DNA from: Mycoplasmatota bacterium
Lineage (GTDB): Bacteria > Bacillota_I > Bacilli_A > Izemoplasmatales > Hujiaoplasmataceae
Direction: 5' to 3'
Assembly: GCA_018622675.1 (NCBI GenBank)
Contig: CP076020.1
Location: forward strand, 1,550,001 to 1,614,000
DNA: 64,000 bases
Part shown: piece by piece, positions 6,923 to 57,633 of the stretch
How positions within the stretch are numbered: position 1 is the first letter of the stretch
Layout: the number at the start of each line of letters is the position of its first letter
The notes under the pieces: generated by a model
The model's database searches: none
The model's input: the letters and a program-made list of their open reading frames with translations, nothing else
What the model was told of the DNA's origin: nothing
Program-made: the position numbers and the translations under genes

Positions 6923-7042
6923 AAAGAATCTCACCTGAAGCATCTCCACCCACATAAACACCTCACTTAAGGCTGCTTCCGTCAAGACCTGACCTGATTC
7001 GTGGGCATCTATTGAGTGAAGATGCTTCATTTGAGATTCTTT
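6923..7042 (-). ncRNA. ffs: Signal recognition particle RNA, short (4.5S) type
   Basis: The minus strand carries the conserved SRP domain IV core CAGGTCAGGT followed by GGAAGCAGCC. Flanking arms pair as one long hairpin: AAAGAATCTCA at the 5' end with TGAGATTCTTT at the 3' end, and ATGAAGCATCT with GGAGATGCTTC. The 3' arm runs into a T-rich stretch that can end transcription. At about 120 nt it is the short form without the Alu domain found in the roughly 270-nt Bacillus RNA. The position next to tadA is the same as scr in Bacillus. The RNA binds Ffh and targets membrane proteins to the translocon. Confidence 0.95.
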
Positions 7043-25811: not shown

Positions 25812-27500
25812 TTAATCTTTTATAAGATTATTTTTGTGATATGCAAAGCTCTCATTAATCGTATTTAACGCGATATTTTCAAGGTGATCAGCAATTCTTT
25901 CTAGGTTAGAAAGAATATCAACATAATAACCTGAAGAACTATCTTTAATTTTTGGATCATTGATTCTATTAATATGATTTATTCTAAATTCTTTAACAAG
26001 TCTATCGACTTCTTTTTCTCTTTTAATCACTTGGTTAGCTAAATCTTTATCATTATTAAAGTAAGCGCGATAAGCTTCTTCAAAAGATTCTCTTATTAAT
26101 TTAAACAATTGATTCATTTCTTGGCATTCAAAATCATTGAAGATTAATTTTTTCTCTTTTCTTTCAAAGAATAACTCAAATAAATTATCGATATGATCAC
26201 CTATGCGTTCGTAATCACTGATTGTATCAATATTTTTCGCAACCATCTGCATTTGACTTGAACTTAAATCATTAGATCCAATTTCAACCAAATAGTTATG
26301 TATTTTATCTTCCATAGAATCAATAAGTTCTTCACATTGCAAACCTATTTCATAAGACTTATCATCATTTTCCATGGCATAGCTATAAATAAACTCATAC
26401 ATACCAAAAGCGCAATTACTCATATTTTTAATAGCAACCAATGAGTTTTCTATGGCTAAATCAGGTGATTCCTTTAATAATAATTTATCTAAAACAACCT
26501 CTTCAATATCAAGTTCTCCTTTAGAAGGAATCAACTTAGTCACCAACCATACAATATGCTTAATAAAGAAGAATAAAATAAAGATGGTCATTAAGTTAAA
26601 TAATACATGGGATATTGAAATGGTTAATTTATTAGTTAAGTATCCATCGCCTATGACTGAACTTGCCATCCAAGCAACTAAGTTTGAATATGGTTTCAAT
26701 AATATTAAGAATAAGACTGTACCAAAAAGATTAAACATCACATGTACAAGGGCAGTTCTTTTAGCACTACTTGTCCCACCTACTGACGCAAAGATGGATG
26801 TTACCGTTGTTCCTATATTGTCACCTAATACAATGGCAATTGCCCCAATTAAAGGCACAGCTCCTGTTGAGAATAATTGTTGTAAAATACCAATTGTAGC
26901 AGATGAAGATTGAATAATAGCTGTGGTTACAGCACCCACTAAGACACCAATGATTGGCCTATCTTCAACACTTAATAACATAGTTCTAAAAGCATCTAAT
27001 TCAACGAGTTTTTTTAGTGCATCACCCATAGTTTCTAATCCGAAAAACAAAAGACCAAAACCTAAAATCACACGACCAAGGGTTTGTATCTTTCTTTTCT
27101 TAATAAAGAAAATCATAAAAGAACCAATAAAAATGATAGGGAAAATATATTTGTCTATATTTAAAGAAATAATCACCGATGTAAACGTTGTCCCTAAATT
27201 GGCTCCAAAAATGACACCAACAGCTTGTGGTAGTGTCATCAGTCCTGCTCTAACTAATCCAACAACTAAGGCTGAAGTTGCTGAAGAAGATTGAATTAAT
27301 GCGGTTAGTAAAATCCCAACAAATATACCTTTTAATGGTGTATTTGTTGTTTTTTCTAAAAATAATTTAAGTTTATTCCCGGCTAACTTCTTAAGAGAAT
27401 CACTCATTAAGCTCATTCCATAGAGGAATATACCTAAACCTCCAACAACAGCAAATGTAATATCTACCCAGTCAATCGCCAAAAAAAATAAAACCGACAT
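25812..27500 (-). CDS. Na+/phosphate cotransporter with C-terminal PhoU-like domain
   Basis: The 562-residue protein belongs to the NptA/YjbB Na/Pi cotransporter family, which moves phosphate with sodium, in some cases outward. The two inverted halves each carry the signature QSSSAT (near residues 66 and 197) in about 8-9 membrane helices (residues 15-320). A helical PhoU-like domain follows (about 350-550). The SD AAGGAG precedes the ATG. A 10-bp inverted repeat surrounds the leader and start codon. Phosphate export or uptake would fit an organism that consumes nucleic acids, but direction cannot be read from sequence. Confidence 0.92.
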   Translation of the reverse strand: MSVLFFLAIDWVDITFAVVGGLGIFLYGMSLMSDSLKKLAGNKLKLFLEKTTNTPLKGIFVGILLTALIQSSSATSALVVGLVRAGLMTLPQAVGVIFGANLGTTFTSVIISLNIDKYIFPIIFIGSFMIFFIKKRKIQTLGRVILGFGLLFFGLETMGDALKKLVELDAFRTMLLSVEDRPIIGVLVGAVTTAIIQSSSATIGILQQLFSTGAVPLIGAIAIVLGDNIGTTVTSIFASVGGTSSAKRTALVHVMFNLFGTVLFLILLKPYSNLVAWMASSVIGDGYLTNKLTISISHVLFNLMTIFILFFFIKHIVWLVTKLIPSKGELDIEEVVLDKLLLKESPDLAIENSLVAIKNMSNCAFGMYEFIYSYAMENDDKSYEIGLQCEELIDSMEDKIHNYLVEIGSNDLSSSQMQMVAKNIDTISDYERIGDHIDNLFELFFERKEKKLIFNDFECQEMNQLFKLIRESFEEAYRAYFNNDKDLANQVIKREKEVDRLVKEFRINHINRINDPKIKDSSSGYYVDILSNLERIADHLENIALNTINESFAYHKNNLIKD

Positions 27501-27571: not shown

Positions 27572-28531
27572 TTATTTATCTAATCCTTCTTTATATTCTT
27601 TAACTAATTTATCAGCATCTTTTAATAAATCTTCAGTTTTATCCCATGTCCCTAAATTAGCACCACAAGCTAAAGCATGTCCACCACCATCATATTGATT
27701 CGCTAATTTATCAATAGCAGGTCCTTTAGAACGCATTCTAGCTCTTACAAATCCTTCTTCATATTCAGCAAATAACATCCAAACAGGACAATCTTCTAAT
27801 TGTGATAACTCATTAACAAGAGATGTTGCTTCTTCTAATGAAACGTCAAATTCTTCCACCAAGTCGTTTGTCATATTAATATATGCAACCCCGTTCTCAG
27901 TTTTCTTAAAGTTTAATAAAACATACCCTTGTAGTTTTAATAAATTCTCAGACTTAACACTTAATTTATTTAAAACTTCTACAAAATCTAATCCATAATC
28001 TAGTAAATATGCAACCGATCTAAATGTATCAGAATTGACAGATCTAAATCTAAATCTTCCTGTATCGGTTACAATTCCAGTATATAAAGCTATCGCTGCA
28101 TCCATATTCATTTTAAGTTCATCTTGATATTTCAAAAAGAACTCTAAAATAATTTGTGCAGAAGCTGGTCTAGATGTATCAACAAACATTAAATCGCCAT
28201 AATCATTAACTGGGATATGATGATCTATTTTAATCACATAATCACTTAATTTATATCTTTGATCCGATACCCTATCTTCTGAAGCTGTATCAACAACAAT
28301 TGATAAAGCACCTTCAAAGTCTTTATCCTCTAAAAGATCAGGCTTACCTACATATGAAACATAATCAGCTTCTTCACCCACTAAGTAAACTTCTTTTTCA
28401 GGATAAGTTTCTTTAATAATATTCTTTAAACCAAATCCCGCTCCATAACAATCTCCATCAGGTCTTTTATGAATATGCATAATAATTTTTTTATATTCTT
28501 TAATTTTTTCTAATATTTTATCTTGTACCAT
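27572..28531 (-). CDS. DHH-family oligoribonuclease/phosphatase (NrnA-like), copy 1
   Basis: DHH/DHHA1 proteins of this size degrade very short RNA or DNA oligomers and pAp, and can clear pApA or pGpG from cyclic dinucleotides. The 319-residue protein has HKRPDGDCYG near residues 20-29, the VDTAS metal motif near 90, DHHIP at about 107, and the C-terminal DHHA1 motif GGGHALACGA near 285. All manganese ligands are in place. Its start lies within the end of the upstream paralogue (14-base overlap), so the pair is coupled. No membrane or PAS/GGDEF part, so it is not GdpP. Confidence 0.93.
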   Translation of the reverse strand: MVQDKILEKIKEYKKIIMHIHKRPDGDCYGAGFGLKNIIKETYPEKEVYLVGEEADYVSYVGKPDLLEDKDFEGALSIVVDTASEDRVSDQRYKLSDYVIKIDHHIPVNDYGDLMFVDTSRPASAQIILEFFLKYQDELKMNMDAAIALYTGIVTDTGRFRFRSVNSDTFRSVAYLLDYGLDFVEVLNKLSVKSENLLKLQGYVLLNFKKTENGVAYINMTNDLVEEFDVSLEEATSLVNELSQLEDCPVWMLFAEYEEGFVRARMRSKGPAIDKLANQYDGGGHALACGANLGTWDKTEDLLKDADKLVKEYKEGLDK

Positions 28532-29471
28532 TATTTTCCTCCTCTAATAGTAAATCTAAGTCTTTTAAAATCATATCAGTTTCTTCCCAAGTATTGACCG
28601 AACATCCACAAGCTCTTAAGTGGCCCCCGCCGCCATATTTTTTAGCAACTTTTAGTACCTCATAATCTCTTGAACGTAATTCGCACTTGATATTATCTTC
28701 TTCTGAATCATAAGTAAAGTTAGCCCAAATAGGTATTTCTTTAATACCAGCCATTTGTCCAACTAAAGCTCTGCTTACAAAATGTGTATCTAAATGATAT
28801 TGTTTTATAAAGTCTTCTGTATTCTTTCGATAAGCGACATTCTTATCAGTCAATTCAACTGATTCAAAGAATATTGATTTAATCTTTTTATCTTCAAAGG
28901 TCTCTAAATAGATTAAATCATGAATTTCTTGCAAGTTAATTCCCGCTTCCATTAACTTAGAAGTCACATAAAAAGTTCTAGCAGTTGTTGAATTAAACCT
29001 AAACCTTCCTGTATCGCCTATAATCCCCATATATAATGCTTTAGCACTCTCTAGACTTATAGTCATATTCTTTTCTAAAAGCATATGAGCGACCATTTCA
29101 GCCGTTGATGATGCATTTATATCCCTTATATATAAATCATGGTCAATATCAGGATCATTTCTATGATGATCAACTAAAACGAGTTCTTTATAATACCTAT
29201 AATCTACTTCTCTTAACATTTGTTTAGCAACCGTATCCAAGATGATGACTAAAGATTTATTTCTTGTTTCAATAGAAACTTCATCAAAATCACCAAAGTA
29301 ATTTAAATTATTTGTATCCCCCACAATGTAAATATTTTTTTCTTTATATCTTTCTTTCAAAGCATAATACAATCCAAATTGAGATCCATAAGCATCTAAA
29401 TCAGGGTTTTTATGTCTAGCGACAACAATAGAATCATACTTATTAATTAATTCAAAAAATTTTTCCGTCAT
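28518..29471 (-). CDS. DHH-family oligoribonuclease/phosphatase (NrnA-like), copy 2
   Basis: A 317-residue paralogue of its downstream neighbour with the same layout: RHKNPDLDAYGSQFGL near 18-33, LDTVAK near 89, DHHRND near 107, GGGHLRACGC near 285. It is the first gene of the pair and has its own promoter (extended -10 TGGTATACT at 29498-29503 on the minus strand) and SD GGAGGG. Tandem NrnA-type genes with intact active sites suggest different substrates, for example linear dinucleotides and pAp. The endonuclease I lipoprotein gene is divergent, 143 bases away. Confidence 0.92.
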   Translation of the reverse strand: MTEKFFELINKYDSIVVARHKNPDLDAYGSQFGLYYALKERYKEKNIYIVGDTNNLNYFGDFDEVSIETRNKSLVIILDTVAKQMLREVDYRYYKELVLVDHHRNDPDIDHDLYIRDINASSTAEMVAHMLLEKNMTISLESAKALYMGIIGDTGRFRFNSTTARTFYVTSKLMEAGINLQEIHDLIYLETFEDKKIKSIFFESVELTDKNVAYRKNTEDFIKQYHLDTHFVSRALVGQMAGIKEIPIWANFTYDSEEDNIKCELRSRDYEVLKVAKKYGGGGHLRACGCSVNTWEETDMILKDLDLLLEEENNGTR

Positions 29472-29614
29472 TTATACCCTCCAAACGATAGTAAAATAGT
29501 ATACCATAAATGATTGTTATTTTCTATTAATTAACACTAAATCATTGTGTTTTTATATATGAAAATCAATATATATGATATAATAATTTGAAAATAAAAT
29601 TAAGGAGACCCATC

Positions 29615-30661
29615 ATGAATAAAAAAGTATTATCCTTCATCATCGTTGTATTATCATCATTTGTTTTTATTGCATGTAATAATACTGATGTTACCACAAC
29701 AGAAATACCTACCACTGAACAACCAACAACAGAAAACACCATTGCTAATATTGAAGTCACTGACTACCAAAAGTTCTATGAACTAAATGAAGATTTTAAC
29801 ATCGCATCTTTAGAAATCAAAGTCACACTTGCAAATAATGATGAATTTATAGTAGATCATTCAGACATTTCTATCAGAAACTTTAACTCTCAAACACCAG
29901 GAAAAAAAGTTATTTCTATTATTTACCAAGGAAACTTAATCAATATAGATTACGTTGTTCTTGAAGAATACGCCTTTGAAATTCATATGGAATACTATGA
30001 AGACGCTATCAACCTAAGAGGTGAACTATTAAAAGTAGCTTTAAACAACATTATTTCAGAAGACTTTGTTGATTTATTATATGGTGATGCCATATGGGTA
30101 CTAGAAGAATCAGATATTGATCCAGATAATCCAGATAATGTCATCTTAGTTTATCCTGGACAATATGGAGAATCAGTCCCTACAGGTTATTCCTCTGATA
30201 TAGAAGGTTACTATTGGAATAGAGAACATGTATGGCCACAATCTAGATTAGGAGAAAATGTTAGTTACACCGATGATTTTCCTAGTGTCGCTACAGATGT
30301 TCATAACCTTAAACCTTCTGATCCAGACGAGAATTCAAGACGATCTAACGACTATTTCGATTACTTTGATACCAACGATACTTTCGAACCAAGAGATGAA
30401 GTCAAAGGCGATATTGCACGTATATTATTTTATATGAGTACTAAGTACTTTCAACTTACATTAAACGAAGATCCTCTAACTGCATCAAATCAAAAAACAA
30501 TGGGCATTTTATCAGTCTTACTAGAATGGAACCAATTAGATCCAGTCGATGAATTTGAAATGAATAGAAACAATGTCATTTATAAACATCAAGGAAATAG
30601 AAACCCATTCATTGATTATCCTAACTTCGCGGAACTTATTTGGGGAGACCTAGCAGAATAA
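29615..30661 (+). CDS. Secreted endonuclease I-family lipoprotein
   Basis: A surface DNA endonuclease. The signal peptide ends in lipobox FIAC (Cys21); a Thr-rich linker follows (about 26-42), then a small Ig-like domain (about 45-117). The endonuclease I domain is from about 120 to 348, with WNREHVWPQS at 201-210, DVHNLKPSDP at 228-237 and NSRRS at 240-244, the His-metal catalytic elements of the family. I chose the ATG at 29615 because AAGGAG lies 7 bases before it. An extended -10 promoter (TGATATAAT) is at 29576-29584. Anchored outside the cell, it would cut environmental DNA. Confidence 0.92.
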   Translation: MNKKVLSFIIVVLSSFVFIACNNTDVTTTEIPTTEQPTTENTIANIEVTDYQKFYELNEDFNIASLEIKVTLANNDEFIVDHSDISIRNFNSQTPGKKVISIIYQGNLINIDYVVLEEYAFEIHMEYYEDAINLRGELLKVALNNIISEDFVDLLYGDAIWVLEESDIDPDNPDNVILVYPGQYGESVPTGYSSDIEGYYWNREHVWPQSRLGENVSYTDDFPSVATDVHNLKPSDPDENSRRSNDYFDYFDTNDTFEPRDEVKGDIARILFYMSTKYFQLTLNEDPLTASNQKTMGILSVLLEWNQLDPVDEFEMNRNNVIYKHQGNRNPFIDYPNFAELIWGDLAE

Positions 30662-30791: not shown

Positions 30792-33700
30792 TTAGTATAA
30801 TATTATGTCGTCTAAATTAACTCTTTGTTTATCTGGTGTTAATGTATGTTTCACTGTAAATCTAACATAAGTTGCGTCAGTTACATCGGAAGTAATCTCA
30901 TATACACTATCAGTTTCTGTTAAAGTAATAGTTGTTCCAGTACTCCATGTAGTTCCATCAGTAGAAAATTGAACAACTAACTCCATTCCTGAAGACTGAT
31001 TAGTAAATGAATAAAACTGAACATTGTTGAAAGCTACAGTAGATACATATTCTGCATATGGGAATCCTGAGACTGAATCATAATCTCTCATTTGCAAATG
31101 CATATCATCAGTAGAACCATTAGTTGTTGTAACAGTACCTTCTCCAACTGTCCACCCATTTACATCTGTTAATCCACCAGTATAGCCAGTACTTGAAGTA
31201 AATCCTTCAGATGTTTCGAAACCAGTTGAATAAACAGAATTAATTACTTCAACATCTAAGGTTTTAGTAACTACAGTCTCGCTATTTAGAGATATTTCAA
31301 TAGTGATTTGACCAGTGACTTTTCCCGTTGGTGCAGTAAATAGAATTGAGCCATCAGTTGTTGTGTAATCAAGATATGTAGCAGCATCTCCTGTAATTCC
31401 TGTAACAGTATATGTTGATCCATATTTTGCAGTTGGAATAACATAATCTTCTGTAATTGTAAGCATATCAGGGAAACTGTATGTATCAGCTTGAAGTTTT
31501 AAACTATCAGTAAACTCAATCTCAAAGGTATCTATTTGGTTATCATCATCTCTATAATTGTAGAAGATAAATGAAGTTTCTGGTAATAAATCACCAGCAA
31601 CAAATGCATCATTTAACCAGTCAGCATAATTTCCATGAAATCTTAAAGTAAGTTGAATAGTTTTGCTTGTCCCTTCTACTTCAAATATTGCAGGATAAGG
31701 GTAACTTGTTGAAATAGAAACTACTTTCAAACCGGTATATGTAATTAGTCTACCTGAGTCCGAAGCATCTAAGGCAATAATTTCATCAGCAGTTAAGGTT
31801 GTATAAACTAAGTCGTTTGCTGTAGAAACAACAGTTTCTTGTACACCATTAAGCAACACTCTTACGCCATAATCAACACCTAATGTTCCAGAAAACATCA
31901 CTTCTTCTCCAACAGTTCCATCTTTATCATCTATAAAGAATCCATTACCATTTTCATCTTGAATAAATAAACCATCGAATGTATCTTGAGTAATAACACC
32001 AACAACATAAACTTCAGTTCCTGTTGCGATGTCATATTCATCATCAGTCATTGAATGTAGTGATGATAAATCAGTTATTTCAGCCATCATATTATATGTG
32101 ATAACTAATGTTTCTGAAACACCACCTTTAGTGATTGTAGCCGTTAATACAACTACAGAATCAGTACCTTCTGCTCTCGCAATTGTTAAATCAGTTCCTG
32201 ATAATGTTGTTAATGAATCAACATCTGCTATGTCCCAAGCAATTGTTGAACCGTTTGTACCAGTAGCTGGAAGAGAAACGCTTACTTCTGTGTAAGCATC
32301 TCCACCAGTAATATTAGTCTTTAACTCTTCAATATCAGCAGCTACTCTATCAACATCTGTAACACCTTCAATTTTATAAACAAATGTTCCAGTTAATTCT
32401 TCGTCATTTAATGTAACTACTGCTTGTAATGTTACTTCCTCTACAGTGTCAGCAGGTACTTCAGTAAATGTAATTTCACTATCTGTAGCATCAAATGTAG
32501 CATTTGAATCTTCATCCGCTTCTTTTGTCCATACTATAGTACTTCCATTAGCGCCTGTTGTTGGTAATGTAACTGTTTGAGCAGTTTTAATTATTCCACC
32601 AAAATCTAAAGCAGCTAAGTCAGCATTAACTTTAGTAGCATCATCCATATCAATTGTTTCAACATCATGTGATCCTACATAATCAAATGTATCTGCTGCA
32701 TATTCATCCCATTCTGCAGCTGTAAAAGTTGTGTTTGGTGATAATACAGATTCTTTTCTAACCCAAGTAAGTTCACCAGCAACTTTATCGTCTTTTGTAT
32801 GTCCAACTTCTAAAATAATGTCAATAATAGTACCATCTTTAACTAAGGCAACAGCGTCATCACCATTAAAATAAGTTGCTGTTGAAGCTACATCGCCTTC
32901 AGCTGTAACAGCTGCGTTAGCATCAGCATTATAGATTACAAATACTTCTCCATCTGCTAATGTACCAGTTAATTCTTCAGTATTACCTGCTTCAGTTGAA
33001 CCATTTGAATATACAACTATTTTATAATCTGATAAGTCAACTTCAGCACCAGTACCATTATAAATTTCAATCCATTTATTGTTTGAAGAACCTTCACCAT
33101 ATTCTGAAATAATTAACTCAGTTGTTGGTGCTATTAATGATGAACTAGGAATAGTTACTTCAACTTCTACTTCTTCTTCAACTGTTCCGCTAACGACTTT
33201 AAAAGTAATGATTGCGCTAACTTCGGTACCGTAAGCTTTAGAAACTTCTAAAGTTCCAGTAGTTGAAGTTGAATCGATAAAGTTAGAAGCAGTACCAAAA
33301 ATTTCTAATACAGAAATTTTACTTCCAAAATCTCCAGTTGCATAAGCATAGTCAGCTGTTAATTCTAATTCGTCTCCCATGTTTCTAACATCTAAAGTTA
33401 CTTTATCTTGATCAGTTAATTCTTGAACTGTGAATTCAGTAGTTGTTACTAAAGCTAATTGTGGTCCATTGTACCATGAAAGAATAGTGACAACATCAAC
33501 TTTATCTCCTTCTTCAAGTGCTTCTAATTCAGCAAATAAAGCAGCAGGTAAGTCATATCTTGAATCCCATTTCATAAATATAGTTTCGCCGTCTGAAATT
33601 CTTTCGAAAGTGATTTCATAGTTTCCATATTTGTCAGTTTCGATTGTATCAATAATCATTCCAGTTAACTCAATTAATTGAGATTGATAAGTTAATAATC

Positions 33701-35618
33701 CATCTTCATCAAGTGTGTAAGCATCAACATTTGTAGGTGTAGGTATTGATGGATTTTCTTTGAATGCTAGTGTATCAACTTTCATTTGGATTAAACCATT
33801 ATAGATTGATCTTTCTCCAGATACAGTAATGATATTACCAACATTTCTTTCTAGTAGATCAACATAATCATCATCATATACATTTAATGCGATATTTCCG
33901 CTATCATCTGCAATGAAGAATGATCCATAATATCCACCAGCAATAACAGTTCCTTCAACTTTTCCTAAATCTCCAATTGTTAAATCGATGAAATCAGAAA
34001 TAGTCATGACAGGAAGTGGTCCAACTTTAATGTCGAATTCTTTTGATGTTGTAACATCATTTAATGTTCCTGTAACTGTAACTGTTATAACCTCTTGAGC
34101 ATCTAAGTCATCTACTGTAATTTCTCCAGTAGTTGCGTCGAATATAGTATCATCAGTTGATGCAAACGATAAGTCTACACCATAAGCTGAGTCAAATAAT
34201 TCTAATGTTGTATCTTCGATAATTGTTTTAGGGAAATCGAAGATTCCTAACGCTGTATCAACAGCATCTTGATCAGTATCAAATTCTAATCCAACATCTA
34301 AAGCAGTTCCAAAGAAGTTTGCATAGAAAACTGTTTTATCTGTTCTATAACCTTGCATGATAATGTCAATAGTGATTTCTTCACCATGGAATGCTTTTAG
34401 AACATCCATATCTGAGTGATAATAAATCATAATTGCATCACCATTTGGTTGTGTAGCTCCATCTGCTAAATCAGCATCAAAGTCATAATCAGTTGGAACT
34501 AAGAATACTGAATAGTTACCCCATGATTCTTCATAATATACACTTGCTGTTACATTAAATTGAACATATTCATGTGGTTTTTCTGCTGATGGAACTGAAG
34601 TTGCATCAATAATATCTTTAATTCCATCTTTATCAACTGTAGGAATATCAGATTTCGCTTCTGTTGACGCTTCAACTCTTAAAGGTTTTGCAGCTGTTCC
34701 AGCTAATTGTGGTGCATTGTAATAAAAATCAATATTACCAGTAATGTCATAGACACTACCTACTTCAGAATCAAATGTTGGTGAATATACATATAGAATA
34801 TCTGTTCCATCTGTAAAGAATACATCACCATTGTCATATTTTGCAATCACTGTAATACCAGTAATTTCAACATATGCATCTTGACCTTCAGCAATTGCAT
34901 CAGCGATTGAATCTACTTCAGTACCCACTGCCATTTTTGCTACAGTGAAAGTTCTATCTTGTGAGAACTCAGTACCATCAACTGTAAACTTAGCAGTTAA
35001 AGTAACATCTACATCTGCATCTTCAGGTTGAGTGATTTCACCATCAGTTGCAATAATATCAGGATGTGAACTAGTCCAAGTGATTGGATATTCGTTCCCA
35101 TTATCATCTTTACCAGTTGTTGTTAAGTTAAGATCATCTGCTGATGTCCAAAACTCATTGTCTGGAATTGCAAAAACGAATAAGAAAACTTCATCGCGAA
35201 TTTCTTCAACTGTTTTTTCTTCTAGTGCTTTAATTGTTACGAAGAAGCTGTAAGTTTCTGTTTCATCTCCAGAAGCAATCGTTACTGTTAATGTAACAGT
35301 TTGCGTTTGCTCTGTGACAGTTGGACGAGTTACCGTACCGTCATTTGCAAGATAATCAGTGTTACTACTACTCCATGTAAAAGTGTAATCACCAAAAGAA
35401 TCAATTAATGTAATATCATCAGTCGCTTCGAAAGTTTCTTTTTCTATTGTGTCAACATAAACTGTTTGTAAGAAATCGATAGCAGGCTGAAAATCTACAG
35501 ACGTCGGCGTTTCACTTGTAGGCGCTTCGGTCGTTTCGTCGTCTCCATTACATCCCACTAAAACAATAGCGAATAATGCAATGAAAAGAAGACTGAATAA
35601 CTTTTTGTTAAACTTCAT
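30792..35618 (-). CDS. Giant multidomain surface lipoprotein with lamin-tail and OB-like domains
   Basis: A 1608-residue lipoprotein (lipobox VGC, Cys23) with a Thr/Pro linker. Repeated beta-sandwich modules of the atrophied bacterial Ig type are seen near 45-130, 155-230, 450-535, 990-1085 and 1088-1178. OB-like modules near 245-315, 545-620 and 1200-1260 recall the nucleic-acid-binding OB domains attached to YhcR-type nucleases. A lamin-tail domain spans about 830-985 (IISEYGEGSSNNKWIEIYN), and a jelly-roll-like end domain about 1460-1608. I see no nuclease or other catalytic motif, so it is more likely a binding or scaffold protein. It is the last gene of the ABC importer operon, 56 bases after the binding-protein gene. 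Confidence 0.8.
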   Translation of the reverse strand: MKFNKKLFSLLFIALFAIVLVGCNGDDETTEAPTSETPTSVDFQPAIDFLQTVYVDTIEKETFEATDDITLIDSFGDYTFTWSSSNTDYLANDGTVTRPTVTEQTQTVTLTVTIASGDETETYSFFVTIKALEEKTVEEIRDEVFLFVFAIPDNEFWTSADDLNLTTTGKDDNGNEYPITWTSSHPDIIATDGEITQPEDADVDVTLTAKFTVDGTEFSQDRTFTVAKMAVGTEVDSIADAIAEGQDAYVEITGITVIAKYDNGDVFFTDGTDILYVYSPTFDSEVGSVYDITGNIDFYYNAPQLAGTAAKPLRVEASTEAKSDIPTVDKDGIKDIIDATSVPSAEKPHEYVQFNVTASVYYEESWGNYSVFLVPTDYDFDADLADGATQPNGDAIMIYYHSDMDVLKAFHGEEITIDIIMQGYRTDKTVFYANFFGTALDVGLEFDTDQDAVDTALGIFDFPKTIIEDTTLELFDSAYGVDLSFASTDDTIFDATTGEITVDDLDAQEVITVTVTGTLNDVTTSKEFDIKVGPLPVMTISDFIDLTIGDLGKVEGTVIAGGYYGSFFIADDSGNIALNVYDDDYVDLLERNVGNIITVSGERSIYNGLIQMKVDTLAFKENPSIPTPTNVDAYTLDEDGLLTYQSQLIELTGMIIDTIETDKYGNYEITFERISDGETIFMKWDSRYDLPAALFAELEALEEGDKVDVVTILSWYNGPQLALVTTTEFTVQELTDQDKVTLDVRNMGDELELTADYAYATGDFGSKISVLEIFGTASNFIDSTSTTGTLEVSKAYGTEVSAIITFKVVSGTVEEEVEVEVTIPSSSLIAPTTELIISEYGEGSSNNKWIEIYNGTGAEVDLSDYKIVVYSNGSTEAGNTEELTGTLADGEVFVIYNADANAAVTAEGDVASTATYFNGDDAVALVKDGTIIDIILEVGHTKDDKVAGELTWVRKESVLSPNTTFTAAEWDEYAADTFDYVGSHDVETIDMDDATKVNADLAALDFGGIIKTAQTVTLPTTGANGSTIVWTKEADEDSNATFDATDSEITFTEVPADTVEEVTLQAVVTLNDEELTGTFVYKIEGVTDVDRVAADIEELKTNITGGDAYTEVSVSLPATGTNGSTIAWDIADVDSLTTLSGTDLTIARAEGTDSVVVLTATITKGGVSETLVITYNMMAEITDLSSLHSMTDDEYDIATGTEVYVVGVITQDTFDGLFIQDENGNGFFIDDKDGTVGEEVMFSGTLGVDYGVRVLLNGVQETVVSTANDLVYTTLTADEIIALDASDSGRLITYTGLKVVSISTSYPYPAIFEVEGTSKTIQLTLRFHGNYADWLNDAFVAGDLLPETSFIFYNYRDDDNQIDTFEIEFTDSLKLQADTYSFPDMLTITEDYVIPTAKYGSTYTVTGITGDAATYLDYTTTDGSILFTAPTGKVTGQITIEISLNSETVVTKTLDVEVINSVYSTGFETSEGFTSSTGYTGGLTDVNGWTVGEGTVTTTNGSTDDMHLQMRDYDSVSGFPYAEYVSTVAFNNVQFYSFTNQSSGMELVVQFSTDGTTWSTGTTITLTETDSVYEITSDVTDATYVRFTVKHTLTPDKQRVNLDDIILY

Positions 35619-35674: not shown

Positions 35675-37528
35675 TTAATTTAAGACTGCTTCAGAGGCTG
35701 ATTTAGCCGCAGCGATTGCACTATCAATAATTGATTGTTTGTCGCCATCTGTTCCTAATATAATACGTTCAAATGCAGCTTCAACTTCAGCTCTTGCTTT
35801 TGAAGAACCTACAAATGCTTGGTCATAGAATAATATATCAGCTTGTAACATTGCCGCATTTGCAGCTTTAGATTTCATTAACATTTCTCCAGCAAGAGGA
35901 CTTCCATCTGTATCTAAACCATTTGTGAAATCAATATATGTTGGTTGAGAATAAACAGAAGTTCTAACAGGTGAATATCCTGTTTCTAATGCGAAATCTA
36001 ATTGTACTTCTTGACTTGTTAAGAATTTTAAGAATAACCATGATGCCAATTTTTCTTGGTCAGTTCCAGCTGTTGTAATTGACATGTTAGTACCTTGTTG
36101 GATTGCTGTTCTGTTTTGTGGCATATTAGCATTATATGGCATTGGTGCTACACCAAATTCAAATGAGAATTCATCATCTACAACAGTAGGCGTATTATAT
36201 CTTGCTCCACCAGTTGAACCAAATGTAATTGCTGTTTGACCAGTTTTGAATGCATCTGAACCATATTCAGTTCCCCATCTATTTGGTACAGTGAATGCTC
36301 CAGGATTGTCATCTTCATCTCTGTTATCATAGAAATAAGACATTGCTGATCTTGTTTGAGCATTATCAAATAAAATAACCCCTTGTCTTTCAGCATTGAT
36401 TGTCGTATATTCTCCGCCCCATTGTCTAGTTAAAGTAATGAATGCGTTTGAAGGTGAATCATATGTAATTGGAACAAAGTTGTCTTTAATATTTTGTCTT
36501 TCTTCTGCAGTTTTATGTACAGAACTAGATTCAGCTTGATTTAAAGTATCAACGATTTGATCAATAACACCATTGTCTTCAGTTGCTATTCTTCTTAAAT
36601 CTTCATTTAATGCCATTAATCCTTGCCATGTAGTAGGGATTTCTGCAATGACACCTTCTTCAATTAATGCATCCATCATCGTTTTATTATAAATCATAAC
36701 CTCTGTTGATTTATTAAATGGAATAGAATAATATTCACCATCTGGTGTATATTGTGAATTTTCTTGTCTATAACTTAATACGATATCTAAGAATGATTCT
36801 CCTTCTACATCTGGGTTATATCCATGATTAACATCATATATATAAGGTGTGATCGGAATAACTGCATTTTTATCAATATATTCCATCACGTGGTCAGGGT
36901 AATTTTGAACAATATTTGGAAGTTCCCCACCTTGAATCGCGTTAACTACATTTGATCTTAATTCATCATAGTTAGCACCATTTGCTGTAATAGTCACAGA
37001 AATATTTGGATATAACGCTTCAAAATCTTCAGCATATCCAATTAAAGCACTTTCTACAGTGGCTCCATTTGAATGCCATAATTCAATTTCGATATTATCT
37101 GACGTTAGCTCTTCAGGAATTGTATAAGCAGTTAAGTCTTTTACAGTAATTGAAACTTGTCTATTAATTAAGTTTCCGTCGCTATCTTCAACTGTCACAT
37201 ATACAGTATAAGAACCTGTTCTTGAAAGTGTATAAGAACCAACAATATTAATGTCTTCAGTGATATCTCCATCTTGGTCATCAATTGCTTGAACACCATC
37301 TAAAATATCATAGTCTTGTGAACCACGATAATATGTTTGATTTGCGAATAAGCCAACGAATCTAGGCTCTTCTTGCTCTGTTTCCTCCGTTATTGGCGGA
37401 TTTGTAACAGGAGCGTTTGTTGTAGGCGCTTCTGTAGTCGCATCAGTCCCGTCACCATTACAACCTATTAATGCAATTGCGAATAATGCGAAAACAAAGA
37501 TACTTAATATTTTTTTACTAATCTTCAT
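35675..37528 (-). CDS. CUT1-type ABC importer solute-binding lipoprotein with N-terminal Ig-like domain
   Basis: The 617-residue lipoprotein (lipobox IGC, Cys23) carries an unusual extra domain of the DUF5011 Ig-like type at about 52-131, ahead of an extracellular binding protein of the UgpB/MalE family (about 140-610). That family binds sugars, oligosaccharides or glycerol phosphates. Markers include IELWHSNG near 146 and TRQWGGEY near 364. The signal peptide and the following CNGD...TTEAPT linker closely resemble those of the next gene's product. A promoter with a palindrome lies just upstream, so it can be transcribed apart from the permease genes. Substrate unknown. Confidence 0.9.
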   Translation of the reverse strand: MKISKKILSIFVFALFAIALIGCNGDGTDATTEAPTTNAPVTNPPITEETEQEEPRFVGLFANQTYYRGSQDYDILDGVQAIDDQDGDITEDINIVGSYTLSRTGSYTVYVTVEDSDGNLINRQVSITVKDLTAYTIPEELTSDNIEIELWHSNGATVESALIGYAEDFEALYPNISVTITANGANYDELRSNVVNAIQGGELPNIVQNYPDHVMEYIDKNAVIPITPYIYDVNHGYNPDVEGESFLDIVLSYRQENSQYTPDGEYYSIPFNKSTEVMIYNKTMMDALIEEGVIAEIPTTWQGLMALNEDLRRIATEDNGVIDQIVDTLNQAESSSVHKTAEERQNIKDNFVPITYDSPSNAFITLTRQWGGEYTTINAERQGVILFDNAQTRSAMSYFYDNRDEDDNPGAFTVPNRWGTEYGSDAFKTGQTAITFGSTGGARYNTPTVVDDEFSFEFGVAPMPYNANMPQNRTAIQQGTNMSITTAGTDQEKLASWLFLKFLTSQEVQLDFALETGYSPVRTSVYSQPTYIDFTNGLDTDGSPLAGEMLMKSKAANAAMLQADILFYDQAFVGSSKARAEVEAAFERIILGTDGDKQSIIDSAIAAAKSASEAVLN

Positions 37529-38269: not shown

Positions 38270-39724
38270 TTATCCTTTCGTACCGCTTCGTCCAATACCA
38301 TTCATAATGTATTTTCTAAATGCAAAGAATACAATTAATAGTGGCACTGTAACCAAGGTACTTGCTGCGATTTGAAGGTTATACATTACACGTCCATTAT
38401 CTTGGACAAAAGCTGTATCTCTTAAGGCGTTTGAAATCAACCAGTATTGTTTACCTTCTTCTCCACCAACACCAGTAATGATTCTTGGCCAAATATATGC
38501 ATTCCATGAACTAAACACATTTAAAATAGTAATTGTAAAAATAGTTGGACTTGCGATTGGTACCATCACTCTTGTTAAATATTTAAAGTCACTACATCCA
38601 TCAATACGAGCAGCTTTATATAATGATTCTGGAATCTGCTTAAAGTTTTGTCTTAAGAAGAAGATGAATGAAATACTTGTGATAAATGGAATGATCATAG
38701 CTAGGAAATATGAGTTATTCTCAGTTCCTACCCATCCTAAACCATTTTTACTAACTGTAATGAAGTTAGTGATAATGTATAATTCACCAGGAATCATCAT
38801 GGTCATGATTAAGATTGTAAATAATAATTCTCTACCTTTAAATTCAATTCTAGCAAAAGCATATGCAGAAAGAATGGTAGTAATAATTGTACCGATAGTA
38901 GAGAAAATAGCTACTGTAATCGTATTTCTAATATATAAACCAAAATTCAATTCCTCTAATACAACTTTAAAGTTAATCCAATTCATTCTTGATAATCCAA
39001 TAAAGAATTCAGGTGATGTTGATGTTGCTCCTGTAAAATCTTTTAATGAAGTTAAGATCATCCAATAGAATGGAATAACAATGATCAAAGCCATAAAGAC
39101 TAAGAATAAGTAAGTCAATAATAATCTCAGTACATGAGCGATGTTTTGACGTCTAATATTTTTCTTTAAAGTATAAGTTGCATCATCATATTCTGATTCA
39201 TCAATTTTTTCTTTTTTTGTTGTTAATTTGCTGAATTTAGCTTTAATTGCAGGAATAATACTTTTAAAGAAGTCTTTAGGTTTATAACCCTTTACAAACT
39301 CTACTAGAATAAACATATTCCATATTCTTAAGACAAATCCACCGATATTAAATGATAGTAAATTAATGATTGCATTCGTAAATTTTGAACCTGCAACATA
39401 TGAATCTACTTCATAAATAGTTCTTGATTTTAGTTTCTTAACATTAATCACAAACATTGGTACTGAAATAATCATGAAGATTACTAAAATCGAGATGATT
39501 AAGTTCATTTGTGCATAACCAATATTAGCTCCAATAAACTCATAAGTTGGGAAGAAAAACTCTAATTCTTCTAAAATAACTTCATTTGTTGTTGGATCAA
39601 TTGGATATATTAACATTCCAAAGAAAACTAAGAAAAGAGTAATATAAGCTATAATTGCAAAAGCATCAAAAATAAATGTAATTTTTTCTAAATTATTAGA
39701 TTTTTTAAATAAGTCTCTATTCAT
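38270..39724 (-). CDS. ABC importer permease, MalG/UgpE type, with long N-terminal extension
   Basis: The C-terminal ~280 residues (about 200-484) are a normal CUT1 permease with six helices and the EAA loop SLYKAARIDGCSDFKYLTRV near 369-388, which contacts the ATPase. The first ~200 residues are an addition with about three more membrane helices (near 17-39, 70-95, 118-142) and a charged cytoplasmic stretch. Family members usually have 270-300 residues. The start has a good SD (GGGAGG). The gap to the first permease is 15 bases. Confidence 0.92.
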   Translation of the reverse strand: MNRDLFKKSNNLEKITFIFDAFAIIAYITLFLVFFGMLIYPIDPTTNEVILEELEFFFPTYEFIGANIGYAQMNLIISILVIFMIISVPMFVINVKKLKSRTIYEVDSYVAGSKFTNAIINLLSFNIGGFVLRIWNMFILVEFVKGYKPKDFFKSIIPAIKAKFSKLTTKKEKIDESEYDDATYTLKKNIRRQNIAHVLRLLLTYLFLVFMALIIVIPFYWMILTSLKDFTGATSTSPEFFIGLSRMNWINFKVVLEELNFGLYIRNTITVAIFSTIGTIITTILSAYAFARIEFKGRELLFTILIMTMMIPGELYIITNFITVSKNGLGWVGTENNSYFLAMIIPFITSISFIFFLRQNFKQIPESLYKAARIDGCSDFKYLTRVMVPIASPTIFTITILNVFSSWNAYIWPRIITGVGGEEGKQYWLISNALRDTAFVQDNGRVMYNLQIAASTLVTVPLLIVFFAFRKYIMNGIGRSGTKG

Positions 39725-39739
39725 TTTATAGCTCCTCCC

Positions 39740-40804
39740 TTAGTAGTGAACGCGTTTTTTGCTGGCTTGCATTTGGACTAAAGTAAGAACCAAAATAATA
39801 CCAAACAAAATTAACGATCCCGCTGCTGCAATCGACAAGTTATTTCCGCCACCATCAATGTATTGGTAGATGTACATAACAATAGATTGCATTGTATAGT
39901 TAGCTCCAGCCGGACGACCAGTAACACCAAATAACGCAACGATTTGATTATAGATTTTAAATGCCCCAATAACTGATGTCACCAAAATATAGAAAATCAT
40001 TGGTGAAATTAATGGCACAGTAATTCTTGAAAAGATTCTTCTTCTAGGTGTCGCATCAATAGCTGCTGCTTGATAATATTGTTTATCAATACCTTGGATA
40101 CTTGTTAAGAAAACCATAATTTTAAAAGCCAATGTACCCCAAGTTGCATAAAAGATTAACACGAACATTGAACGCCAATACTCAGCGCCTTGTTCCACCC
40201 AAGAAAATTTACCTAAACCAAATAATTCATTGACTAACCCGCCATCAGCTTTAAACATATAGGCAATAACTAACCCAATCGCGATTGTGTTAGTTACATA
40301 TGGTAAGAAATAAATGGTTTGGAAAAAACCTTTTAATGGTTTAATACCGTTTAATGCTACAGAAATAAATAATGATAAGAAAATTGAAACTGGCACTGAA
40401 ATAAATACAATAATCAATGTATTCATAACTGCAGTCCCTTCAGTATGTGATGCAGCAAAAAGGAAACTTTCGTCATTAATAACTTTAATAAAGTTACCAA
40501 ATATTGTGTATCCAGTAATTGTATTATTACTCATGTTGTAACCTTCATAAAGCATTAATCTAAATGAGTTTATAATTGGCCAAAAAGTAAATACCGATAA
40601 TACAATAAGTGCAGGAGATAAATATATTAGCGCTCTAGCCCATCCCGGAAATTTTGTTGCAAGATTTAAATTTTTCTTATCTAAATATGCTCCAATTTTT
40701 TTCTTTCTCGCATTAAAGGCTCTTCTCATATCCCAGAAAAACGTTTTAATTGAAGTCGTCATCTTTCTGAAAGAACTTTTAATGTTTTTTATTAAACTAG
40801 CCAT
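39740..40804 (-). CDS. ABC importer permease, MalF/UgpA type
   Basis: The 354-residue permease has about six membrane helices between residue 57 and the C-terminus. The EAA loop YYQAAAIDATPRRRIFSRIT lies near 246-265. The first ~50 residues are basic and cytoplasmic, longer than in typical UgpA proteins. The gene overlaps the end of the ATPase gene by 8 bases. It forms the transmembrane channel with the next permease. The substrate is not determined by sequence; most relatives carry sugars or glycerol derivatives. Confidence 0.94.
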   Translation of the reverse strand: MASLIKNIKSSFRKMTTSIKTFFWDMRRAFNARKKKIGAYLDKKNLNLATKFPGWARALIYLSPALIVLSVFTFWPIINSFRLMLYEGYNMSNNTITGYTIFGNFIKVINDESFLFAASHTEGTAVMNTLIIVFISVPVSIFLSLFISVALNGIKPLKGFFQTIYFLPYVTNTIAIGLVIAYMFKADGGLVNELFGLGKFSWVEQGAEYWRSMFVLIFYATWGTLAFKIMVFLTSIQGIDKQYYQAAAIDATPRRRIFSRITVPLISPMIFYILVTSVIGAFKIYNQIVALFGVTGRPAGANYTMQSIVMYIYQYIDGGGNNLSIAAAGSLILFGIILVLTLVQMQASKKRVHY

Positions 40805-41870
40805 GATTGATTACCTTTCCAGTATCTTTATCAAAGACATATAATCTCTTACGTTTACAAGTAAGTTCTACAGATTTGTCATTGTCTCCCACTGAATCGG
40901 AATCAACTAATGCACGAATGTTTTGTCCATTTAATTCAAAGTGAATCATAGTATCTCTACCCACGTGGAAGATTTCTTTGATATCAACTTTAATTTTATC
41001 TTTTGAATCTTTTTCTGCAACTCTAAAATGTTCAGGTCTAATACCGATGATATATGAACCATCTTTAACTTCTTTAAATTGCATGAATTTTTGATCATTA
41101 AAAATTACAGCGCCATCTTTAACGTCAGCTTCAAAAGAATTGATTGGAGGATTACCTAAGAATTTAGCTACAAATAAGTTTGCTGGTGTATTATACATTT
41201 CTTGTGGTGCAGAATATTGTTGCTCAACACCAAAGTTTAATACAACCATTTTGTCAGAAATACTCATTGCTTCTTCTTGGTCATGGGTTACAAACACTGT
41301 TGTAATTCCAGTTTCTCTTTGAATTCTTTTAATTTCTTCACGCATTTGTAATCTTAAACGAGCATCTAAGTTAGATAGTGGCTCATCTAATAATAAAACT
41401 CTTGGTTTCTTTACAAGCGCTCTTGCAATAGCAACACGTTGTTGCTGTCCACCAGATAATTGAGCAGGCTTTCTGTCTAACATTGTTCCAATACCAACTA
41501 AGTCAGCCATTTCTTTAACACGTTGAATTGCTTCATCTCTTGGAACATCCATGTTTTCTAATGGAAACATGATGTTTTTGTAAACAGTCATGTGAGGATA
41601 TAATGCATAGTTTTGGAAAACTAAACCAATACCTCTTTTTTCAGGCGCTAATTTTGTTACATCATCTTCACCGAAGAAGATTTTACCTCTTGTAGGTTTT
41701 AATAAACCTGCAATCATGAAAAGTGTTGTCGATTTACCACATCCAGATGGCCCTAACAAACCAACAAGTGTTCCTGAGTCAATTGTTATACTTAAATCAT
41801 CAACAGCTGTTGTATCTGTACCAGTCTTATTTGTGAAAATCTTTGTTAAATTCTCTAATCTTAATTCCAT
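40797..41870 (-). CDS. ABC importer ATPase, MalK/MsmK/UgpC type
   Basis: The 357-residue ATPase has Walker A GPSGCGKST near residues 39-47, signature LSGGQQQR near 142, Walker B VLLLDEP near 163, the switch His in VTHDQEE near 199, and a C-terminal TOBE/OB regulatory domain (about 240-357) as in MalK. It is the first gene of the importer operon, which then runs through two permeases, a small lipoprotein, the binding protein and the giant lipoprotein. MsmK-type ATPases can serve more than one importer. Confidence 0.95.
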   Translation of the reverse strand: MELRLENLTKIFTNKTGTDTTAVDDLSITIDSGTLVGLLGPSGCGKSTTLFMIAGLLKPTRGKIFFGEDDVTKLAPEKRGIGLVFQNYALYPHMTVYKNIMFPLENMDVPRDEAIQRVKEMADLVGIGTMLDRKPAQLSGGQQQRVAIARALVKKPRVLLLDEPLSNLDARLRLQMREEIKRIQRETGITTVFVTHDQEEAMSISDKMVVLNFGVEQQYSAPQEMYNTPANLFVAKFLGNPPINSFEADVKDGAVIFNDQKFMQFKEVKDGSYIIGIRPEHFRVAEKDSKDKIKVDIKEIFHVGRDTMIHFELNGQNIRALVDSDSVGDNDKSVELTCKRKRLYVFDKDTGKVINHG

Positions 41871-41961: not shown

Positions 41962-42780
41962 TTATTCATATGGTTTTCTTTTTTCTTTTCTTTTTTTAAA
42001 GAAAATAAAATACGTTGAAAATATTAATATCAAGAAATATGCACCCATAACAATCCCCATGATGTATATATATTCATCAACAAGGTAGTTATTGGTTGTT
42101 ACAACCTGTTCCTTAGGTTGTATACTTGAATCCTCTAACAAATGAATGTTTTCATATGTTGGAAATTCATTATACTCATTATAAAATACAGTTAATTTAT
42201 CCTTAATGGTAAAATCTTCTTCACTTAAATTTAAAGCGCTTTCAGTTATCGTATTGTTTTCTGTGTCTTTTAATTGAATTAGATTATAGTTGTTTTCTAA
42301 ATCTATTTCACCTTTTTCAACTAAAAACATAGAAGATTCCGCATTCACTGAGGATAAAATATCTAAACCTTGATATCTGATTAAATCAATATCAAAGCTT
42401 TCTCCTGAGTCATTGTTATGTAATTTGATTGTATTGACTTTATCAAGTTCTCCTACTTGCTCGTGATAAACTATAAAGAATAAATACTCTTCAATAGATG
42501 AAAATTCATCTTGATCATCTTTTATAATCCTTGCAATTTCATAAGCTCTTATCTGATAGCCAGATTGATCAATATTTACTACTGGTTCACTTTTATGATA
42601 ATCCGGAAAGGATGCATAGAAGTAATAAAATTCTGGAAGGTCAGATGCTTCATCAGTCAGTGACCCACCAAAGATATCTTCATAATACGCTTCTCTCATT
42701 TTGATTGTCGAGAAACTAAAAGCCAACAAAAATATCCCTACTGCAAATAAGGCATATAGAAACCTACCAAAAATTCTCAT
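41962..42780 (-). CDS. Bitopic membrane protein of unknown function
   Basis: The 272-residue protein has one N-terminal membrane helix (about 8-25) and one near the C-terminus (about 236-260), with an acidic external domain of about 200 residues between them and a basic cytoplasmic tail (KKRKEKRKPYE). No family recognised. It overlaps the end of the nuclease lipoprotein gene by 4 bases (ATGA), so it is co-translated and probably functions with it at the cell surface. A gap of 91 bases follows before the ABC importer operon. Confidence 0.72.
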   Translation of the reverse strand: MRIFGRFLYALFAVGIFLLAFSFSTIKMREAYYEDIFGGSLTDEASDLPEFYYFYASFPDYHKSEPVVNIDQSGYQIRAYEIARIIKDDQDEFSSIEEYLFFIVYHEQVGELDKVNTIKLHNNDSGESFDIDLIRYQGLDILSSVNAESSMFLVEKGEIDLENNYNLIQLKDTENNTITESALNLSEEDFTIKDKLTVFYNEYNEFPTYENIHLLEDSSIQPKEQVVTTNNYLVDEYIYIMGIVMGAYFLILIFSTYFIFFKKRKEKRKPYE

Positions 42781-44540
42781 TCGTGAATTCCCAAATTATT
42801 ATCTCTTGCGAATTTTTCAGCTTCTTGAAGCCATCTAATCATATAACGATTATTAATCACTAAATTAGATTCACTACCATAGTAGTTATAAGAAAATCCG
42901 TTTTTAACCACATGATAATTAACTAGAATAAGACCCGTTAATTCTTCTGTGAATAATACATTTTCTTCACTATCTAAAATATCGATTGATAGTACGTTAT
43001 CACCTAAATCAACCCACACTAAACCTAAATGTCTACCATAAGTTTCAGAATAGCCAAGATCAGGGTCGCTTTGAATATAGATAGGTAAATCATTTGTATC
43101 CGCATACTCTAAAATAGTCGTTGTATAAGCCTTAGCTTCTAACCCCCAAGGTTCAGGACCATCAGGCGCTACAGTTGGACTTGTTTCTGGAGTATTGATT
43201 CCTAAGAATCTAACACGTTCATCACCCATAAATCCTGGATAGAACGCTGCGGTATCTCCATCATGAATATCTCTTACTTCAACTTCAGCCATCCCACCTT
43301 CAGAATGATCAAAGCCTTTTATTAATAAAGCACTTACTTCTGCAGGAGTCAAAGTCAATAAATCATCTATATCTAAAGGATGCGTACCTATGATTTCATA
43401 ATAATCAGGAACAAAAGCGGTCCACTCGCTTAAAGAATAATCTCTATTACCTGAACTTACAGTATCACGGCGAACATAAATTTCATTATCCATGATAAAT
43501 CCTCTTTCACCTAAGTTATAAACTGTATCTATATAAGTATCATTTTTATATCTTAACTGAATGGTGTCATTACCATCAAAAACAAAATCTGCACTTCTTA
43601 AATCTGCAATTTTTTGTAATGAAGCATCTGTATTGGTTGAAGTAATCAAAAATGTATCTTTTGCAGCAATAACACTATCAGCTTCAAACTCTATTCTAGA
43701 TGTTACATCATATGAGCCATTAGCGTAAATCACTAAATGATAATCTTCAAGGTTAATATCATCATCCGTAGGGTTATATAATTCAATAGCAGAGTTATCT
43801 TCACTATCAATATACTTAGAAATAAATAAGCCTAAATCAGTATCTGTAAATGAGTTTTTATAAAGAACAACTTCTATTGTAGAATCTTCTTCATAATAGT
43901 CACCAATATCAAAACCTTGATAATAAGCAAAACTTCCTTCAGCATAATCATCATTCTCAACTTCGCTAAAAGTGAATTTAATTTGTTGTTCATCCAATAT
44001 ATCTTTAATTTCAGTTTCTAGCTTTCCTGTTAAGTCAGGTAAAGATTCTTGGTTATCAGCAATTAAAATAATGAATTCTTCTGAATCATCAATTTGATCG
44101 CCGATGTCATGATTTTTATATCCGTAAAATGTCATATCATCAACATCATTATTAACAATAATTTCAAAGTCGTAACTATTCATACTAAAACCTTTAGAAC
44201 TTAAAAAGTTAAAAATATCAAATTGTTCCATACCAGATAAATCTGGAAGATATAAATCTTCAGTTGATACGATCACTATAACGCTTTCATTTTCTAAAAC
44301 TACATCACCAACTTGGTGATCATTTCCATAAGATATAAAACTTCCTTCATCTAAATCAGGGTCTGTTACATACTGAATAGTATAATCTATTCCAAGATCA
44401 TCTAAAGTAGATTCGATATCAGAAAGAATTTCTCCTTCTAAATTGGGTAAACTTGCTTCCTGAGTCTCAGAACCACCGCAAGAAACAAGCAATATGGCAC
44501 TCATTGCCATGATAATTGTCATCAATATTCTTTTTGTCAT
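42777..44540 (-). CDS. Surface nuclease lipoprotein: PASTA-like repeats, lamin-tail domain, SNase domain
   Basis: The 587-residue lipoprotein (lipobox VSC, Cys21) has three PASTA-like repeats each starting LPxL (about 31-92, 98-162, 167-228), a lamin-tail domain (about 235-390, with ELYNP near 253), and a staphylococcal nuclease domain (about 418-580). In the nuclease the calcium motif DGDT is at 427-430; RVRFLGINTPE at 442-452 supplies Arg444 and Glu452; and YGRHL supplies Arg503, so the catalytic triad is complete. It should cut DNA or RNA outside the cell; the other domains probably hold substrate or partners. Overlaps the next gene by 4 bases. Confidence 0.9.
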   Translation of the reverse strand: MTKRILMTIIMAMSAILLVSCGGSETQEASLPNLEGEILSDIESTLDDLGIDYTIQYVTDPDLDEGSFISYGNDHQVGDVVLENESVIVIVSTEDLYLPDLSGMEQFDIFNFLSSKGFSMNSYDFEIIVNNDVDDMTFYGYKNHDIGDQIDDSEEFIILIADNQESLPDLTGKLETEIKDILDEQQIKFTFSEVENDDYAEGSFAYYQGFDIGDYYEEDSTIEVVLYKNSFTDTDLGLFISKYIDSEDNSAIELYNPTDDDINLEDYHLVIYANGSYDVTSRIEFEADSVIAAKDTFLITSTNTDASLQKIADLRSADFVFDGNDTIQLRYKNDTYIDTVYNLGERGFIMDNEIYVRRDTVSSGNRDYSLSEWTAFVPDYYEIIGTHPLDIDDLLTLTPAEVSALLIKGFDHSEGGMAEVEVRDIHDGDTAAFYPGFMGDERVRFLGINTPETSPTVAPDGPEPWGLEAKAYTTTILEYADTNDLPIYIQSDPDLGYSETYGRHLGLVWVDLGDNVLSIDILDSEENVLFTEELTGLILVNYHVVKNGFSYNYYGSESNLVINNRYMIRWLQEAEKFARDNNLGIHE

Positions 44541-44577
44541 AATAAAACCCTTTCTTTCATGCGAAAAATCTTGAAAA

Positions 44578-57394: not shown

Positions 57395-57611
57395 AATAAA
57401 AAATCGTCCTTATAAAAAGGACGATTATTAACCGTGGTACCACCTTAGTTCTAGTTGCCTAGCACTCGTATCTTTAACGCAGATTCTACGGACAGTTCTA
57501 CTTAATTCTTCTGTCTCTCCTGGTGTTTTTCAAAATAAGTGTTTATAAGGTTTCACCGGCCCCTTACTCTCTATAAAAACTAGCTTATCTTTACTCTTCC
57601 AATCATTGATT
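57395..57611 (-). promoter_or_regulatory. T-box riboswitch upstream of alkD-asnS
   Basis: On the minus strand the T-box core AAGGTGGTACCACGG is at 57432-57446. It is followed by the terminator AATCGTCCTT/AAGGACGATT (57402-57426) with its T run, and preceded by a stem I region with the AGAGAG-type bulge and GGTGAAACC-like loop. An AAC triplet at 57525-57527, in the 3' side of stem I, is the best candidate asparagine specifier, but I could not fold stem I with certainty. A promoter with TGATATAAT lies at 57618-57626, inside the end of prs. Confidence 0.9.
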
Positions 57612-57633
57612 TATCTTATTATATCATATTTTA

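Follow-up and report, generated by a model that had tools for sequence, protein, structure and literature searches.

The window, as we call the whole stretch of 64,000 nucleotides analysed here, encodes a predicted lipoprotein in which three PASTA repeats, a lamin-tail domain (LTD) and a staphylococcal nuclease-like domain (SNase) succeed one another in a single chain. On balance it is best read as a nuclease that is anchored in the membrane and faces outward, in an Izemoplasmatales bacterium that has no wall and scavenges DNA; PASTA probably acts in it as a spacer module and not as a wall sensor. The lipid on Cys21 would hold the nuclease in the sole membrane, the three PASTA repeats would form an acidic linear stalk followed by the LTD, and the SNase at the tip would cut environmental DNA or RNA near the membrane; Endonuclease I, an ExeM-like LTD protein, DHH phosphoesterases, an ABC importer and a phosphate transporter would take over afterwards. 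In most descriptions PASTA repeats sense peptidoglycan, and their conserved use in wall-free cells is a natural test of the fold without its classical ligand. The architecture is a family trait and not a lone novelty. The features of the gene and its surroundings are collected in Table 1.

Table 1. Features of the nuclease gene and the surrounding locus (positions in the window)
Feature	Positions	Strand	Remarks
PASTA x3-LTD-SNase predicted lipoprotein, 587 aa	42777-44540	-	whole gene, stop included
Shine-Dalgarno-like GAAAGAAAGGG	44548-44558	-	from sequence; before nuclease gene
Signal peptide, residues 1-20, and putative lipobox Cys21 (LVSC)	44478-44540	-	helix 3-18 in AlphaFold model
PASTA repeat 1, residues 31-94	44259-44450	-	Pfam, profile-profile, Foldseek, repeat model
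PASTA repeat 2, residues 98-164, divergent	44049-44249	-	profile-profile, fold, repeat model, ortholog match
PASTA repeat 3, residues 167-230	43851-44042	-	Pfam, profile-profile, Foldseek, repeat model
Lamin-tail domain region, residues 236-390	43371-43835	-	Pfam 238-340; ExeM-like 238-387
SNase domain, residues 415-587	42780-43298	-	D429, R444, N449 (Asp40 position), T450, E452, R503
Two-TM membrane partner, 272 aa, beta domain between helices	41962-42780	-	start overlaps nuclease stop by 4 bases
Single-TM protein, 93 aa	44578-44859	-	just upstream, 37-base gap; same place in family
ABC transporter ATPase, UgpC/MalK-like	40797-41870	-	
Two ABC permeases	38270-40804	-	38270-39724 and 39740-40804
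Predicted lipoprotein, 227 aa	37618-38301	-	weak Ig-like match
ABC solute-binding protein	35675-37528	-	
1608-aa protein, 4 aBig_2 and LTD	30792-35618	-	ExeM-like over 829-991
Endonuclease I family protein	29588-30661	+	
Two tandem DHH/DHHA1 NrnA-like phosphoesterases	27572-29471	-	
Na+/Pi cotransporter with PhoU	25812-27500	-	

The nuclease frame opens with ATG and is read with translation table 11. A recoded or mis-called gene is ruled out, as table 4 merely extends the frame beyond its stop and the table 11 end coincides with the ends of the orthologs; so is a phage origin, with no match among 50,697 phage records. From the N- to the C-terminus the protein comprises a signal peptide, Cys21, the three PASTA repeats, the LTD and the SNase. 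The motif LVSC at residues 18-21, which we take to be a lipobox, includes a cysteine kept in at least 90% of the rows of the A2 alignment; the nuclease is a predicted lipoprotein, with Cys21 probably lipidated and the enzyme probably exposed on the cell surface. The initial annotation had proposed three PASTA-like repeats, a lamin-tail and an SNase in one lipoprotein, and profile searches bear this out. All three families exceed their Pfam cut-offs: PASTA (PF03793) at 8.3e-9 in two stretches, with 35.7 bits against a gathering score of 23.2, LTD (PF00932) at 7.5e-12, with 46 bits against 34.3, and SNase (PF00565) at 5.2e-5, with 24.1 bits against a cut-off of 21; repeat 2 is recognised by profile-profile comparison and fold. 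Below threshold, NCBIfam models match in three places: ExeM in the LTD, PASTA kinases at residues 6-226 and the thermonuclease NucI in the SNase. Pfam finds no Pkinase domain in the protein. A promoter scan remained at chance level (77 found, 82 expected) and a terminator scan was weak (8 against 4.3).

Comparison of the repeats with PASTA profiles, the check that had been suggested for them, identifies them as PASTA by Pfam, profile-profile comparison and Foldseek alike. Repeat 2 of the window protein is not reported by Pfam; its homology to repeats 1 and 3 emerges from profile-profile comparison (E 3.4e-22 and 1e-13), it scores 8.8e-21 with a repeat model that was made from these orthologs and is therefore not independent, and the G016 ortholog gives a Pfam PASTA match of 20.9 bits, below the cut-off, over its second repeat. 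The AlphaFold model of the protein (built from 20 sequences; mean pLDDT 87.7, pTM 0.68) finds as its top Foldseek matches S. aureus PrkC (3py9, 9.8e-13), the three-PASTA structure 3m9g (3.2e-10) and the PASTA region of M. tuberculosis PknB. Profile and fold agree, which rules out a chance likeness. The extracellular region of PrkC/PknB (Stk1) likewise has three PASTA repeats in a row, with this same fold; in contrast to these kinases, the window protein has no kinase domain, a predicted lipid anchor in place of the TM helix, a nuclease at its tip and a genome without detected peptidoglycan genes. A degenerate PrkC or penicillin-binding protein (PBP) is ruled out, as neither was found in the window genome.

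The SNase part of the model matches staphylococcal nuclease with a Z of 17.2 over 135-136 residues (rmsd 2.2-2.4), in keeping with membership of the thermonuclease family. In what we take to be the staphylococcal numbering, the equivalents of Asp21, Arg35, Thr41, Glu43 and Arg87 are kept in all 20 rows of the A2 alignment. The equivalent of Asp40 is Asn449 in the window protein and Asp in the other 19 rows. The SNase had been described as intact, which holds for five of the six catalytic positions and fails at this metal-ligand position; the replacement of a metal-binding Asp means that activity may be reduced, and nuclease activity as such is plausible. A motif count over the fetched loci, near-copies included, gives 126 Asp and 9 Asn at the Asp40 position, and the SNase of a paralog in the same genome likewise has Asn there. 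Unlike staphylococcal nuclease, the window enzyme also sits behind PASTA and an LTD and has a predicted membrane tether. Elsewhere, outside the window at ~1,004.8-1,008.8 kb of genome G000 (L034:3815-7768, minus strand), a single 1318-aa chain carries cohesin, dockerin, Ig-like and ABC solute-binding domains and, at its C-terminus, an SNase that shares 66% identity with that of the window (query residues 380-587).

The window genome, a single contig of 1.65 Mb, has no match to the PBP transpeptidase (PF00905), mraY or Pkinase. Within the relatives set the PBP transpeptidase is matched in one of 61 genomes (G019), mraY in none and Pkinase in four, the window's not among them, and the control genomes were matched. 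The lineage had been called apparently wall-less, and this agrees with the missing PF00905 and mraY matches and with electron microscopy of a relative: genome G004, given as the same genus and putatively Hujiaoplasma nucleasis zrk29, carries an intact copy of the nuclease gene, and the account of that strain in PMC10470597 describes an already cultured organism that shows no wall by TEM and degrades nucleic acids. Without a detected PBP transpeptidase or mraY there would be no self-made peptidoglycan for the repeats to bind. The domain order occurs mainly, not exclusively, in wall-less cells, because G180 has both PBP and mraY; both were found in three of 24 chosen homolog-bearing genomes, namely G180, which has the full order, and two PASTA-SNase genomes, G117 and G125. 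These relatives, which have PBP and mraY and share the PASTA nuclease, with or without the LTD, are what speaks for the idea that PASTA joined the nuclease in a walled ancestor, bound the wall there and now persists by inertia without a present role. We regard such a carry-over as improbable, however, as the repeats stay open and folded over deep divergence and in some lineages have grown in number to 4 or 5.

The order had been presented as a new one, which as a description of a lone case does not stand: both the family and relatives named Acholeplasmataceae conserve it, with 2 to 5 PASTA copies. A gene with intact order and no inner stops is present in 14 of the 34 genomes of the window's family, its own included (in one of these copies, L015, the N-terminus is cut by a contig end), and PASTA, LTD and SNase are all matched by Pfam in 14 of 14 aligned orthologs, the window's among them. 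G002 holds an edge fragment of the gene. In G001 (C1:11744-13473), of the same genus, the ortholog has stops in the PASTA part and is either a pseudogene or an assembly error. The 27 other genomes of the order in the relatives set yield no full-length match, and none for the full PASTA-LTD-SNase protein was found in G041 (putatively Xianfuyuplasma coldseepsis zrk13). Close homologs occur in records named Candidatus Izimaplasma and Izemoplasmatales, further ones in Acholeplasmataceae and Tenericutes MO-XQ. Across the class the profile matches 239 of 395 genomes at E<=1e-10, most of them over the LTD or SNase only; among the best loci of these 239 genomes, a single frame holds PASTA, LTD and SNase in at least 15 genomes from outside the family. 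A one-genome oddity is ruled out by the intact copies in the family and its relatives.

Several properties of the repeats point to a stalk and not to a wall sensor. Their number varies: by the ortholog-derived repeat model, 40 LTD-SNase proteins have 0 (five proteins), 2, 3, 4 or 5 copies, and these five states need at least six changes on a tree of 37 rows, from which three near-copies or edge-cut sequences were left out and in which L174 and L175, each with two clear repeats and one weak one, count as having three. Sequence conservation climbs from the membrane end outward, with mean pairwise identities within the family of 0.39 for PASTA1, 0.48 for PASTA2, 0.56 for PASTA3, 0.61 for the LTD and 0.70 for the SNase. 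No PASTA column has Lys or Arg in at least 10 of 12 family rows (3 columns do so in the LTD and 6 in the SNase), which argues against an Arg site like that of PrkC; the mature protein is strongly acidic (pI 4.05), and the net charges of repeats 1 to 3 (-15, -13 and -13) argue against DNA binding by the stalk, a reading that we reject. The passages on PrkC and PknB in the review PMC3601408 state that their PASTA repeats are linear, that Arg500 of PrkC is needed for muropeptide binding, and that only one of the three PrkC repeats binds, such binding not being intrinsic to PASTA. Reuse of the repeats as a spacer or for another ligand, as first suggested, remains the best reading; the spacer role draws support from these several indirect lines.

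Another reading turns to foreign walls: the peptidoglycan or lipid II bound by PASTA could come from other bacteria, and the repeats would recognise muropeptides or lipid II of lysing neighbours and bring the nuclease to them as food. The kept PASTA fold and the known binding of muropeptides by PASTA proteins lend this some credit, yet no repeat has a conserved Lys/Arg column, the outer repeats evolve fast, copy number ranges from 0 to 5, and the single binding repeat of PrkC weakens the general premise; we hold it to be very doubtful. Two observations are left unexplained by a pure spacer: PASTA3 is nearly as conserved as the LTD, and a specific membrane partner accompanies the gene.

This partner, encoded by the gene that overlaps the nuclease stop, is the basis of the main rival explanation, in which PASTA would dock onto the extracellular beta domain of the two-TM protein and the two would form a surface nuclease complex. 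A homologous two-TM ORF follows the nuclease gene in 21 of 21 loci (two rows show one TM in a crude scan), in nine of nine further PASTA-bearing loci (in one case the ORF has 209 aa and a single TM by the same crude scan) and in G004 locus L043, so that it lies directly downstream in every checked PASTA-bearing locus; the survey left out the PASTA-bearing L171, L177, L179 and L181, and L049 ends before the partner. Partner profiles of three lineages align with one another at E 4e-21 or better. The partner profile gives strong, near full-length matches in all eight chosen PASTA-LTD-SNase genomes, while in 37 other genomes, which include ones with PASTA-free LTD-SNase and ones with other PASTA enzymes, it gives six partial matches of at most 33.1 bits and none in the remaining 31, hence nothing above 34 bits. 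No partner-like ORF follows the PASTA-free gene in any of the four testable cases. Against docking stands the tree: PASTA-free LTD-SNase forms make up one clade and account for one change, so the link between PASTA and partner rests on a single event. These forms are also distinct in that their LTD begins at a distance of 7 to 12 residues from the Cys, compared with at least 143 in PASTA-bearing proteins where the LTD-start cut worked (in the tree input it failed for L051, L165 and L180, whose PASTA residues were kept, and sparse columns were dropped). The partner may instead bind the LTD, the SNase or the transporter, and its fold lacks a clear relative: Foldseek returns no match at E<=0.001, the best Z of 6.4, to FetP/P19-like proteins, lies below the tool's informative level, and Pfam on 18 members gives merely scattered weak matches to single members. 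Docking appears rather unlikely to us, and the spacer stalk is kept as the preferred reading.

The nuclease is embedded in a locus that spans 25.8-44.5 kb of the window and in which secreted nucleases, phosphoesterases and ABC and phosphate transporters are co-located, in a gene order kept in relatives. On the upstream side lie, besides the 93-aa protein, genes that are presumably recR, ybaB and dnaX. More than 600 C-terminal residues of the 1608-aa protein have no Pfam match at E<=0.01. Loci of Ca. Izemoplasmatales with like gene content, namely secreted nucleases, an LTD protein, 3'-5' nucleases/phosphohydrolases and ABC and phosphate transporters, are described together with DNA-degradation experiments in section 11 of PMC8289736 and section 21 of PMC8397711, and the word PASTA is absent from the main texts of both papers. 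The initial annotation had allowed that the architecture might already be common and annotated. Common it is, yet PASTA in it is undescribed in the literature found: our search returned no paper mentioning PASTA repeats in these nucleases, and nothing relevant on PASTA in wall-less bacteria. The DNA-degradation locus, the coupled membrane partner and the Asp-to-Asn change go beyond what had been noted at first. A further relative is ExeM of Shewanella (NF033680), which also has an LTD in an extracellular nuclease; the window protein matches it with 58.7 bits over residues 238-387 only, below the curated cut-off of 1300. As far as the account of ExeM in PMC6085458 goes, deletion of the LTD slows activity without abolishing it, and the protein has YhcR/YcgR-like and EEP domains, no PASTA or SNase being named there.

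PASTA is not confined to this protein. It is matched in 32 of the 61 genomes of the relatives set at E<=0.01, in 17 of them above the cut-off. Of 40 PASTA places, assigned by position and by the frames read (37 read, leaving two in G055 and one in G028), 16 lie in PASTA-LTD-SNase genes, 14 in other SNase genes, three in GH5 and one in DUF4185 genes, one in the frame of a G007 solute-binding homolog and two in 127-aa proteins of unassigned kind; none of the 37 places read falls in a kinase or PBP. Pfam runs on ten PASTA frames and relatives show that PASTA also begins other predicted lipoproteins of the order, with the architectures PASTA-SNase-DUF5689, PASTA-GH5 and PASTA-DUF4185. The partner, and a possible broader role of PASTA in surface display in peptidoglycan-free cells, are the most interesting points of the analysis. 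Tentatively, and with less confidence than in the spacer reading itself, we suggest that after peptidoglycan loss Izemoplasmatales and Acholeplasma-like bacteria may have made PASTA an exchangeable part for surface display, either as a stalk or as a rod on which members of a new two-helix membrane protein family dock, with nucleases, glycosidases and transporter binding proteins as its cargo; in the window this would be a two-gene surface nuclease complex feeding DNA pieces to the importer. The analysis thereby names a concrete predicted surface nuclease, together with its uncharacterised membrane partner, in sediment bacteria for which extracellular DNA is the presumed food.

Some individual loci may be recorded here. 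The fusions of PASTA to GH5 or DUF4185 in predicted lipoproteins of the order are found at L129:1420-3000, L130:196-1755 and L133:1417-2742, and in G007 (L042, 10454-12703, minus strand) a homolog of the ABC solute-binding protein of the window has a PASTA match on its N-terminal side. The window further contains a T-box leader (57414-57615) and a small SRP RNA (6934-7028), both on the minus strand.
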